From the IMG/VR virus record IMGVR_UViG_3300042914_002219, positions 1 through 24,844 of that record: a stretch of DNA of 24,844 nt; one strand, written 5' to 3'. The position numbers were made by a program, and so were the translations under genes. A model generated the notes under the pieces. The model searched no databases. It was given only the letters and a program-made list of their open reading frames with translations, and had not been told where the DNA came from. The stretch's first letter is position 1, and each line of letters opens with the position of its first letter. This document shows, piece after piece, positions 1,088 to 24,044 of this stretch. The DNA is from a virus.

Positions 1088-1116
1088 TACATAAAGAACA
1101 ATCCCCCCTCTTTCAA
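1088..1116 (-). promoter_or_regulatory. Candidate sigma70-like promoter for the 1063 gene
   Basis: Read on the minus strand, TTGAAA (1116-1111) is separated by exactly 17 bases from TATGTA (1093-1088). The -35 matches consensus in five of six places, the -10 in only three. A transcript would start near 1081 and leave a short leader containing the GAGGAGG ribosome site. The weak -10 makes this tentative. Confidence 0.35.
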
Positions 1117-1654: not shown

Positions 1655-1750
1655 TCACATCCCCGGAGTTGCGGCGAAAATAAAGGCAATGAAAGCCCAC
1701 AAGACAGCGGCGCCAATGACGCCTTTCAGGATCAGCCCGATCAGCGTCAC
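1655..1750 (-). CDS. Tiny single-span membrane protein, 31 aa
   Basis: This very short frame starts at GTG 1750 and ends at TGA 1657-1655. The GTG overlaps the TGA stop of the upstream gene as GTGA, and the next gene starts two bases after its stop, a tightly coupled arrangement. The protein, VTLIGLILKGVIGAAVLWAF followed by IAFIFAATPGM, is almost entirely one hydrophobic helix with a single Lys near the N-terminus. Small inner-membrane phage proteins of this kind can be holin-like, exclusion factors or regulators of host envelope proteins, but nothing here decides between these. A 71-codon ATG-started version of the frame exists, but its first 40 codons are Arg-rich and overlap the upstream gene. 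Confidence 0.55.
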   Translation of the reverse strand: MTLIGLILKGVIGAAVLWAFIAFIFAATPGM

Positions 1751-2496: not shown

Positions 2497-2530
2497 GATG
2501 TTCCCTCCGTTGTTCATCGGCGCAATGCCG

Positions 2531-2558
2531 ACAATGGGAGCATATGAGGCACAATGGG
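2531..2558. repeat. Direct repeat ACAATGGG x2, 20 bp apart, at a promoter
   Basis: ACAATGGG occurs at 2531-2538 and 2551-2558, exactly 20 bases (about two helical turns) apart. One copy lies in the promoter spacer and the other just past the -10 element near the expected transcript start. This is the placement expected for a same-face operator pair controlling the minus-strand operon. Confidence 0.45.
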
Positions 2559-2568
2559 CGCGCGTCAA
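2539..2568 (-). promoter_or_regulatory. Sigma70-like promoter of the minus-strand operon
   Basis: On the minus strand TTGACG (2568-2563) and TATGCT (2544-2539) are separated by 18 bases, matching consensus in five and four of six positions. The transcript would begin near 2532, giving a leader of about 36 bases that includes the GGAGGG ribosome site of the 2496 start. It would read the Cys-cluster protein, the tiny membrane protein and the 123-aa protein. Confidence 0.6.
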
Positions 2569-2667
2569 GCGCTATCGATCAATAACGACGCATCGTCGCA
2601 TATGTCGCGACTAGTCGCCCATGATCGGTCCAAAGGCGATCCCAAAAGAGAAGCTCCCCCTTCCATA

Positions 2668-2689
2668 CTCCCATGCCCATAGATGGGAG
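2668..2689. other. Stem-loop, 7-bp stem
   Basis: CTCCCAT (2668-2674) pairs perfectly with ATGGGAG (2683-2689) around an 8-base loop. No U-tract follows on either strand. It sits in the control region upstream of the minus-strand promoter, so it could be a protein site or an element of a transcript crossing the region. Confidence 0.35.
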
Positions 2690-2811
2690 AGTACGTAAGG
2701 AGAGACGCTGCAGCTGATCGGCCGGCCGCTCGATTGCGCCTGCTGCGCCGATCTAGCGGCGCGACAAGCACGACGGCCCAAGGTCACTCCGCCTTCGCCT
2801 GGCAAACGTGA

Positions 2812-2826
2812 TGTTATACTATAACA
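2812..2826. promoter_or_regulatory. Perfect palindrome TGTTATA-C-TATAACA, operator candidate
   Basis: The 15-base sequence has two 7-base arms that are exact reverse complements around one central C. It is AT-rich in a GC-rich region and contains -10-like hexamers in both directions (TATACT on plus, TATAGT on minus), although no good -35 lies at 16-18 bases on either side. The form is typical of a dimeric regulator site that also overlaps a promoter core. Confidence 0.45.
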
Positions 2827-2880
2827 CTCTCGCTGCGACCGACTCGCATCAATCCCCGTGCCAGCTACCGTTGCCGATCG

Positions 2881-2991
2881 GCCACACTCGGCGACTATCC
2901 GCCTAGCGGCCCAGCGTTGCACGGTTGCCACAGTGTGGCGGATCGGCCACAGTGCGGCCGTCTGGGTGTGGCAAGGTCGCCACAGTGTGGC
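2881..2991. repeat. Cluster of GCCACA-n-TGTGGC palindromes upstream of terS
   Basis: Two identical sites GCCACAGTGTGGC lie at 2927-2939 and 2979-2991, with a one-base variant (GTGC) at 2946-2958. Half-sites are GCCACA at 2881-2886 and TGTGGC at 2967-2972. Each full site is a 6+1+6 inverted repeat; the variant has one arm mismatch. Centres of the full sites are 19 and 33 bases apart. An 11-base direct repeat GATCGGCCACA also occurs at 2876 and 2941. The cluster ends about 145 bases before terS. It could be an operator array, the packaging-initiation (pac or cosB-like) site bound by the small terminase, or replication iterons. The sequence cannot decide, but spacing and symmetry argue for dimeric protein binding. 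Confidence 0.65.
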
Positions 2992-3096
2992 GCAGAAGCC
3001 GCGGCGGGCATCGGCGGCGACCCCCTCCCACCGGCAGCGACAACGACAGACCCCCCCCGGCCTTGGGGTTTGCGAAGTCAGCCTGCGCGCGCTACG

Positions 3097-3112
3097 TGCG
3101 TGTTCTCACGCA
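3097..3112 (+). other. Small hairpin in the terS leader
   Basis: TGCGTG (3097-3102) and CACGCA (3107-3112) form a perfect 6-bp stem with loop TTCT, 23 bases before the terS ATG. It is followed by C-rich sequence, not a U-tract. It may influence terS translation, which lacks a visible ribosome site. Confidence 0.3.
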
Positions 3113-3135
3113 ACCCCCTGTCCCCCAATAGAAAA

Positions 3136-3840
3136 ATGCCCATTTTAGAGCCACAACCTCCACGTGTCCCTGCTGATTGGTCTCGTGTTGACTGGGAGGT
3201 GGTGAGGGTGCTTTGGGAGGCTGGGGCATCTATGTCTTGGCTGCATAGGCGGTATGTGTTTACTGATCGGGAGTTTGGTGTGAGGGTAGAGGGGTTTTCT
3301 TCTTTTAGGAGGAGCGAGGCGATGAAGCGTGGTGGTTGGGAGGGACCGAAGGTTGTGGGGGTTGTGGATCCTGGGGGGAGTAGTCTCGAGATGTGGGTGG
3401 ATGGCTTGGCAGCCATTGACTATCCTCGGTTTGACAGGAACTTGTTTCCGTATGGGGAGGTGGCGCAGTTTCTGCATAATGTGGGGGAGGGGATGCCGGT
3501 GGTTTTGGCGGCGCCGGCGGCGGGGATTGACGCGCAGCAGGTGGCGTCGTGGCGGAAGGTGGAGCCGCGGTTTGATCAGTTGATTCGCCGGGCGAGGGCG
3601 TTGGCGGCGAGGAGGTTGGTCAGGAACATCACGCAGTCGGATGATTGGCGGGCGTCGGCCTGGATGCTGGAGCGGAACGTGGCGAGGGAGGAGTTTCGGC
3701 AGGAGGCGGCGCAGGAGAAGCTGGTCATCGAGATCAATGTCAGCCGGGACCAGGCGATCGCGGCGAAGCATGGGGTCATCGATGTGACCCCGGAGGTGGT
3801 GGATGGCCAAGTGGTCCCTGGATTACCTGCCAAGCCCTAA
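3136..3840 (+). CDS. terS: Terminase small subunit, 234 aa
   Basis: This is the DNA-recognition subunit of the packaging motor. The central and C-terminal part has the small-terminase pattern: a helix-turn-helix-like segment (VVLAAPAAGIDAQQVASWRK) followed by the helical oligomerisation region (LIRRARALAARRLVRNI, then DDWRASAWMLERNVAREEF). The position directly before terL, overlapping it by 38 bases, supports the call. I use ATG 3136; the same frame continues upstream through the palindrome cluster, which looks non-coding. No Shine-Dalgarno sequence precedes the ATG (AATAGAAAA). The first 150 or so codons are strikingly poor in C, with T- and G-ending codons, unlike the C-ending codons of terL. 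The N-terminal domain (residues 1-100) is larger than in minimal small terminases, with a WSRVDWEVVRVLWEAGASM segment that may be an extra helical DNA-binding element. Confidence 0.85.
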   Translation: MPILEPQPPRVPADWSRVDWEVVRVLWEAGASMSWLHRRYVFTDREFGVRVEGFSSFRRSEAMKRGGWEGPKVVGVVDPGGSSLEMWVDGLAAIDYPRFDRNLFPYGEVAQFLHNVGEGMPVVLAAPAAGIDAQQVASWRKVEPRFDQLIRRARALAARRLVRNITQSDDWRASAWMLERNVAREEFRQEAAQEKLVIEINVSRDQAIAAKHGVIDVTPEVVDGQVVPGLPAKP

Positions 3841-5296
3841 GCAGCAGGTGCTGCATGCCGTTCGAGCCAGGCAGATCATGTTTGGCGGGGCGGCGGGTGG
3901 GGGGAAGAGCCACGCGCTCAGGATGGACGGCTTGATTGCCTGCCTGGAGAACCCTGGCTTGCAGGCATATCTGTTTCGCCGCACGTACCCGGAGCTGAAG
4001 GACAACCATCTGATTCCGATCCAGCAGATGGGGATACCGCCGGAGGTGGCGGTGTGGAAGGAGACGGATCGGAAGTTGTCGTTCTACAACAACGCCTTCC
4101 TGCAGTTCTGCTTTGCCGAGGATCTGCAGGACATCTTCAAGTACCAGGGCGCGGAGATGCACTGGCTGGGGATCGACGAGGGGGCGTTGTTCCTGCCGGA
4201 GCAGATCAAGTTCCTCAGGACGCGAGTGCGACTGGGCCGGTACGAGGCGACGCAGAAGGACATGTTTCCGCGGATCGTCATCGGGTCCAACCCTGGGGGG
4301 CCGAGCCACAATCTGCTGCGCGAGATCTTCATCGATCAGGCGCCGCCGCTGCAGATGTTCCGGGACCGGACGACCAAGACGAAGAAGAGCGCTGGTTGGA
4401 CGAGCCTCTACATACCCTCCCGCATGGAGGACAACCCTCACCTGGATGTGGACAGCTATGAAGGATCCTTCACCGCCTTGTCTGCCGAGCGAGCCAAGGC
4501 CCTGCGGGATGGCGACTGGGATGTGGTGGCGGGAGCAGCTCTCAGCATGCTCGAACGGGGGAAGCATCTGGTCCGCCCATTCAAGCCCCCAAGACACTGG
4601 ACACACATCATGGCTATGGACTGGGGGACCGCAAAACCCTTCTCCGTCGGCTGGTGGGTCCTGAGCGAAGGAGCTACCCTTGCAGGCAAGGATGGGTTCC
4701 CGGATCGCCACCTGCCGAAGGGGGCGCTGATCCACTTTGCCGAGTGGTACGGCTGGTCGGGGGAGGCGGATACCGGGTGCCGGATGTCGTCCGGCGAGGT
4801 TGCCCGCGAGATCCTGAAGATGGAGAAGGAGATGGATCTGCCGCCGATCGACATCCGGGTGGCGGATCCGCAGATGTGGGCGAGCCAGGACGGGCCGTCG
4901 CCCCAGGAGAACATGCGCCGGGCCACCGATGGGCTGTTCGTGCTGCGGCAGGGGCGCCGGGACAGGAAGGCCAACTACACCGAGTTCGTTGAGCGGCTCA
5001 TTGGCAAGCCAAATGATGACGGCGTCGTGGAGCCTATGCTATACGTCACGGCGAACTGCAGGCACTTCTGGCGCACCGTGCCGGGCCTTGTCCTCGATAC
5101 GCTGGAACCCGACAAGGGACCGGCGACCAGAACCCAAGAGGACCACATCTACGACATGAGCGGCTTCGCGATTGCGACATATGCGAATGTGTCGACAGCG
5201 CGGGACCGTTATGACGAGGAAATGAGGGACTTGGCGCGCCAATTTGGTGGCGGGTCGAGGGATCCATATGCTGTTCGGTCTAGGAGGATGAGATGA
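3803..5296 (+). CDS. terL: Terminase large subunit, 497 aa
   Basis: ATPase and nuclease of the DNA-packaging motor, acting at the portal vertex. The N-terminal ATPase domain has a Walker A loop GGAAGGGKS (residues 28-36), Walker B WLGIDE (121-126, with D125 and E126) and a coupling-type GSNPGG (161-166). The nuclease domain begins near MAMDWGTAKP (D273), the usual first acidic residue of the RNase H-like fold. IRVADPQMW and a C-terminal HIYDMSGFA provide the later acidic positions. Length is normal for the family. The start at 3803 has GGAGG upstream and lies inside the end of terS. The stop overlaps the next start as ATGA. Confidence is high. Confidence 0.96.
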   Translation: MAKWSLDYLPSPKQQVLHAVRARQIMFGGAAGGGKSHALRMDGLIACLENPGLQAYLFRRTYPELKDNHLIPIQQMGIPPEVAVWKETDRKLSFYNNAFLQFCFAEDLQDIFKYQGAEMHWLGIDEGALFLPEQIKFLRTRVRLGRYEATQKDMFPRIVIGSNPGGPSHNLLREIFIDQAPPLQMFRDRTTKTKKSAGWTSLYIPSRMEDNPHLDVDSYEGSFTALSAERAKALRDGDWDVVAGAALSMLERGKHLVRPFKPPRHWTHIMAMDWGTAKPFSVGWWVLSEGATLAGKDGFPDRHLPKGALIHFAEWYGWSGEADTGCRMSSGEVAREILKMEKEMDLPPIDIRVADPQMWASQDGPSPQENMRRATDGLFVLRQGRRDRKANYTEFVERLIGKPNDDGVVEPMLYVTANCRHFWRTVPGLVLDTLEPDKGPATRTQEDHIYDMSGFAIATYANVSTARDRYDEEMRDLARQFGGGSRDPYAVRSRRMR

Positions 5297-23631: not shown

Positions 23632-24044
23632 TGCTGACCCGCCGCGAAGACTGGCCCTCCCGCCTCGCCGCCGCGCTGGAAGAGGCGCGCGACAAGCCGT
23701 TCAAGTGGGGCTCGCATGACTGCGGCCTGTTCGCCGCGGACTGCGTGCTGGCCATGACCGACACCGACCCGGCAGCGCTCTACCGCGGCCAATACGTCGA
23801 CGAGGCCGGAGCACGCGACACGCTGTGGCTGATCTCCGGCGGCGGCCTGCGCGCTGCGTGGACGAAGGCGCTCGGCCCGGCGATGAACAACGTCCGCATG
23901 GCGAAGCGCGGCGATGTCGTGCTGGTGGAGGTCGGCGGCGTCGAGGCGACCGGCGTGGTCGTGGGGTCGCGCGTGGCGTGCCTGAGCGAAGCGGGCCTTG
24001 CCATGGTGCCCGCGCACCGCATCGTCGCTGCGTGGAGCGTCTGA
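23631..24044 (+). CDS. NlpC/P60-like tail protein (DUF6950-like, K-like position), 137 aa
   Basis: The N-terminal FKWGSHDCGLFAADCVLA has the WGxHDC block with candidate catalytic C31, as in cysteine peptidase-like tail proteins. AKRGDVVLVEVGGVEATGVV follows, with His126 (ALAMVPAHRIVAAW) as the likely partner. In lambda this position (gpK) is a peptidoglycan-cleaving or tail-tip peptidase, and a similar role in cell-wall penetration is inferred. I prefer ATG 23631 (TGATG with the previous stop); ATG 23619 gives four more residues (MGPL). Confidence 0.76.
   Translation: MLTRREDWPSRLAAALEEARDKPFKWGSHDCGLFAADCVLAMTDTDPAALYRGQYVDEAGARDTLWLISGGGLRAAWTKALGPAMNNVRMAKRGDVVLVEVGGVEATGVVVGSRVACLSEAGLAMVPAHRIVAAWSV

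Follow-up and report, generated by a model that had tools for sequence, protein, structure and literature searches.

The leftward genes of this probably lytic phage would be started by an ordinary sigma70-type promoter, here P1, read by the host RNA polymerase, and the two copies of CCCATTGT around its core are most likely a product of chance, one lying in a drifting spacer and the other in the start region, rather than a tandem operator. We give this explanation as a whole a probability of roughly 0.68. Transcription from P1 would begin near position 2532 and run through a short leader that forms a stem-loop, then through a good ribosome binding site (RBS), to cover a gene of the phrog_2554 family, a gene for a 31-amino-acid hydrophobic peptide and further small genes. 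Selection would keep the hexamers and the start region, even though one lineage has a different gene behind them from another.

The window, as we call the whole stretch of DNA analysed, is the 24,844-base virus record IMGVR_UViG_3300042914_002219 and belongs to a tailed phage. Portal, head, tail and tape-measure genes lie to the right of the terminase genes. To the left of the 639-bp intergenic region (2497-3135) the genes are on the minus strand, in the order phrog_2554-family gene, 31-amino-acid peptide, and then genes from 1652, 1063 and 602; a hairpin-rich stretch at 607-679, just before the RBS of the last of these, is 88% identical in the record of relative L021 and 74% in that of L017. 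Coordinates of the features discussed are collected in Table 1. Megablast of the window against the phage collection gave no match, two other leftward genes used as queries for relatives found none, and neither a tRNA nor an Rfam RNA was detected in the window at gathering score; one hit below that threshold, covering minus-strand positions 1198-1253, was judged to be chance. The large terminase of L017 is 84% identical to that of the window. Tyrosine integrase (PF00589) and HTH_3 repressor (PF01381), the recombinase and repressor families covered, were found in 0 of 14 related records, some of which may be fragments, in searches that detected both families in 14 of 14 control genomes, and this suggests a lytic group. 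Bacterial genomes searched with the large terminase yielded seven loci, which we read from their titles as clostridial genomes or MAGs, at 28-30% identity.

Table 1. Coordinates of features in the window
Feature	Position	Strand	Remark
P2, promoter-like TTGAAA-17-TATGTA before ATG 1063	1088..1116	-	weight matrix; shares TATGNNCCNATTG with P1
Gene for 31-aa hydrophobic peptide	1655..1750	-	start overlaps preceding stop by 4 bp
phrog_2554-family gene, first behind P1, 249 aa	1747..2496	-	profile match
RBS GGAGGG	2503..2508	-	sequence
5'-leader stem-loop TCGGC-ATTGC-GCCGA	2517..2531	-	11/15 identical in L017
Repeat copy 2 CCCATTGT, directly after putative -10	2531..2538	-	5/8 identical in L017, one gap
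P1 putative -10 hexamer TATGCT	2539..2544	-	18-bp spacer; 5/6 identical in L017
Repeat copy 1 CCCATTGT (ACAATGGG on plus strand), within spacer	2551..2558	-	4/8 identical in L017
P1 putative -35 hexamer TTGACG	2563..2568	-	6/6 identical in L017
Palindrome TGTTATACTATAACA	2812..2826	.	kept at corresponding place in some relatives
Terminase small subunit (phrog_4102)	3136-3838		
Terminase large subunit	3803-5296		

P1 is TTGACG-18-TATGCT on the minus strand, exactly as the sequence-only reading had it in hexamers, spacer length, coordinates and orientation. It matches the consensus at 9 of 12 positions, with just 4 of 6 in the -10 hexamer, and its spacing falls within the 16-18 bp criterion. A simple weight matrix placed it second among the sigma70-like matches of the whole window, with the two strands taken together. 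The -10 hexamer ends 42 bases upstream of the ATG at 2496.

The intergenic regions of the window and of L017 could be aligned, and at the matching place L017 carries TTGACG-18-TATGCA in front of a gene for a 32-amino-acid hydrophobic product, not in front of a phrog_2554 gene. Identity between the two is complete for TTGACGCG (8/8) and stands at 5/6 for the -10 hexamer and 11/12 for both hexamers together, against 5/16 for the inner spacer; for hexamers plus flanks (16/17) against inner spacer, Fisher's test gave a P of 2e-4 on columns picked once the alignment was known. Over the 100 bases upstream of P1, 41 are identical in L017 and 24 are gapped. The skeleton TTGACGCG-N16-TATGC-N-CCC matched four times in viral_contigs, three of the matches being the corresponding promoter of L017, L018 and L087, which count as about one independent lineage since L017 and L087 show 2 differences in 700 bases at the promoter region. 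We judged the fourth, L088, to be non-corresponding; blastn did not match it to the window, and tblastx gave 73 scattered segments at 1e-4, the two printed being of 26 and 36 residues with an E value of 5e-9. A second pattern, combining the -10 hexamer with the leader hairpin, again retrieved L017, L018 and L087, together with two contigs that have no tblastx match.

More widely, six of nine relatives scanned (L017, L019, L021, L028, L025 and L032) have a promoter-like site (scores 6.1-12.7) in front of a leftward gene close to the same edge, presumably the first gene of its operon; no such promoter was assigned in L023, L026 or L036. Judged by their N-termini these presumed first genes differ, being small and hydrophobic in L017, L019 and L028 (32, 64 and 61 amino acids, directly behind the corresponding promoter) and of other kinds in L021, L025 and L032. 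In L021 (about 3590-3623) and L028 (about 4780-4813) the spacer of the corresponding leftward promoter contains a palindrome, TTGTGAATCACAA. Among homologues of the phrog_2554 gene, L002-L004 have a TTGACA-17-TAAATG site upstream, read by eye.

P1 is probably a real promoter: it lies in front of an RBS and ATG, it ranks high among the promoter matches of the window, and one related lineage conserves its hexamers. The sequence-only reading of a promoter serving the minus-strand genes is thus supported, and its proposal of a tandem operator is not. Its designation as early would follow from the layout alone.

The 36-base leader of P1 has a predicted fold of -8.9 kcal/mol, and the stem-loop in L017, TGGGC-ATTTA-GCCCA, shows one compensatory pair change relative to the window. 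Since homologues of the phrog_2554 protein align from about ATG 2496, the part of the long open frame that lies upstream of it is probably noncoding. The protein covers positions 285-519 of the 529-position profile, and its family matches 147 phage records with hosts from Mycobacterium to Klebsiella, all at less than 60% identity. An alignment of 12 sequences has seven invariant cysteines. The predicted structure is confident (mean pLDDT 84.1) and had no match in the PDB at an E value of 0.001; bacterial genomes contained no homologue of the protein. The gene was found in 0 of 17 terminase-related records, L017 included, in a search run with no positive control, and a separate search with the same query recovered its known homologues and no terminase loci.

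The repeat was described in the sequence-only reading as two copies exactly two helical turns apart. The copies are indeed exact and 20 bp apart, a distance slightly short of two turns of 10.5 bp. Besides these two, the window has no other copy of ACAATGGG, and at least two copies appeared in 11 of 100 whole-window shuffles; when the pair is extended, 10 of 11 positions agree. Within 61 bp, a pair exactly 20 bp apart arose in 0.0011 of 20,000 shuffles and one at any spacing of 9-31 bp in 0.029. Over the 639-bp intergenic region the corresponding fractions were 0.0145 for exactly 20 bp and 0.243 of 2,000 shuffles for any such pair. When the bases of the 65-bp region around the promoter were shuffled 1,000 times, a fraction of 0.006 equalled the repeat, and across the window a direct repeat of at least 8 bp at 9-31 bp was present in 101 of 1,907 sliding 65-bp segments. 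Counting overlapping pairs separately, the whole window has 55 8-mer pairs at that spacing, where 19.9 would be expected. The repeat is therefore unusual locally but not globally; its chance value depends on the frame chosen, and as weak evidence it only mildly stands out.

Conservation gave no support to the tandem operator layout. The sequence-only reading had named a lack of conservation of the repeats, in relatives that share the gene, as an outcome that would refute it, and this is what we observed: not even one exact copy occurs within 260 bases upstream of the gene in any of the 14 phrog_2554 homologues L002-L015 (11 distinct upstream sequences), whose proteins are at most 56% identical and whose upstream DNA is too diverged for alignment. 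The one test in an alignable promoter comes from the L017 lineage, which lacks the phrog_2554 gene; the 60 bases around the promoter contain no exact copy in L017, L018 or L087, and the two copies are reduced to 4/8 and 5/8 in L017. A further relative, L016, is 97.6% identical over 548 bases but begins at 3353, beyond the promoter. The exact pair with its spacing occurred nine times in viral_contigs, in no recognisable relative (best blastn E value against the window, 0.18), and eight of these nine had no tblastx match to the window at 1e-4. The other, L076, gave 14 tblastx segments, the two printed being of 17 and 43 residues with an E value of 3e-5, and was taken as noise.

A lineage-specific operator could nevertheless be imagined, in which a phage regulator binds both CCCATTGT copies from the same side of the helix, covering spacer and start site, and shuts off P1; relatives would have the core promoter in common but a different operator, much as phages of different immunity types do. 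We consider this unlikely. Exact 8-bp copies around the -10 hexamer, with local P values of 0.001-0.03, are what it would predict, and the TTGTGAATCACAA palindromes of the L021 and L028 promoters fit an exchanged operator, as does the imperfect repeat CACTATTGACG/CCCTATTCACG in the L017 promoter itself, where the copies lie 17 bp apart and agree at 9 of 11 positions. That repeat, however, is not significant (P 0.09), and the promoters of L019, L021, L028, L025 and L032 and P2 have no notable direct repeat. The spacing short of two turns and the lack of the HTH_3 repressor and tyrosine integrase families in the 14 related records also argue against it, and none of the window's leftward genes, many of which have no known family, could be identified as coding for a regulator.

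The second copy of the repeat could instead matter for another reason. The CC-ATTG stretch behind the -10 hexamer might be a start-region element of P1 and P2, used by an altered polymerase or affecting the efficiency of the start, with the copy in the spacer incidental. The window matches TATGNNCCNATTG exactly at just two places, the -10 hexamers of P1 and of P2 (P2 region 1081-1116), the latter ranking fourth among promoter matches of the window; this sharing hints that the stretch may be more than chance. L017 keeps TATGC-N-CCC. The motif was, however, derived from P1 and P2 themselves, which makes the count circular, and a copy with one mismatch lies at 1159-1171 on the plus strand. L017 has CCCGCTTG rather than CCCATTG, and the other exact match among the fetched loci falls in L025/L038/L042, in sequence that reads as coding; we regard a start-region element as quite improbable.

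It is likewise rather doubtful that P1 is no promoter at all, its hexamers having arisen by chance and leftward transcription starting further up, for example at the palindrome 2812-2826. A fixed-rule scan over 6 kb found three promoter-like sites where about 1.6 are expected by chance, and the palindrome, kept in some relatives, contains a -10-like TATACT/TATAGT; against this stand the position of P1 before an RBS and ATG and the L017 hexamers that are kept while the spacer drifts.

The palindrome, TGTTATACTATAACA, is the sole match in the window, and 100 shuffles contained none within three mismatches. Among 18 sequences, several of them near-identical, only L019 shares it exactly with the window, while L025, L038, L042, L032 and L033 differ from it by three mismatches. 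The intergenic region that corresponds in L028 and L021 contains other palindromes, CGTGATAATATCACG and CGTGATAACATCACG, with four and five mismatches; four-mismatch sites number 188 in 846 kb, so by sequence these two are at chance level and count only for their position and symmetry. No palindrome was found in L017, L018, L020, L023, L024, L026, L027, L029 or L036, in some perhaps through a short contig. The distance from palindrome to large terminase gene is 931-1070 bp, except for 2077 bp in L021, a relative in which an additional stretch of over 1 kb separates the large terminase gene from the small-terminase region. At the palindrome position L017 is identical at 5 of 15 bases, and since it keeps P1 and has no palindrome, the two elements do not go together.

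The gammaproteobacterial Zur box is a 19-bp element, AATGTTATANTATAACATT, and alphaproteobacterial boxes differ from it, according to PMC2706843. TGTTATACTATAACA is exactly the 15-bp core of that box; over its full length the window agrees at 17 of 19 positions, two of the four outer bases differing. The Zur-like candidate of the window differs in setting, lying in a phage intergenic region, and some relatives have GTGATA-type palindromes instead. No title among the literature matches listed dealt with a Zur box in a phage. The palindrome is a better candidate operator than the repeat, and its likeness to a Zur box is a lead and no more. We find it very unlikely that leftward control is modular, with a fixed core promoter, an operator and first gene exchanged between lineages and a conserved palindrome equal to the Zur-box core, through which a metal-sensing regulator of the Fur family, provided by the host, would adjust the divergent transcription of the phage.

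Further to the right, three near-identical palindromes GCCACAGTGTGGC lie in 65 bp (2927-2939, 2946-2958 and 2979-2991). At two mismatches or fewer there are seven matches, each palindrome counted on both strands plus one at 23817, and 0 of 100 shuffles reached seven; the array region is identical at 56 of 121 positions in L017. Regulator, origin or packaging sites are possible roles for this array. A block at 3043-3109, before the small terminase gene, is 79-85% identical in L017, L019, L021 and L028 and may act in packaging or as a promoter for the rightward genes.

Direct-repeat operators at phage early promoters, such as the sites of Apl in phage 186, resemble the CCCATTGT pair in being short direct repeats around a phage promoter (PMC7498355). 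As described there, Apl sites are spaced by one helix turn and bound by a known protein, whereas here we have one pair about two turns apart, unconserved and with no known binder.

The ordinary promoter that we favor is an ordinary finding, one more phage promoter. It would nonetheless fix the probable beginning of the leftward operon of an uncultured phage, and it offers an example of a promoter that is retained in front of different genes. Attention shifts from an unconserved repeat to a palindrome kept in some relatives. The closest parallel to P1 is, as a class, the early promoters through which lytic tailed phages use the sigma70 of their host. P1 departs from them in its four-of-six -10 hexamer TATGCT and in being a promoter predicted from sequence; it shares with them a TTGAC-type -35 hexamer, an 18-bp spacer, a -10 hexamer, a short leader and an RBS, in front of a leftward operon that diverges from the packaging genes.
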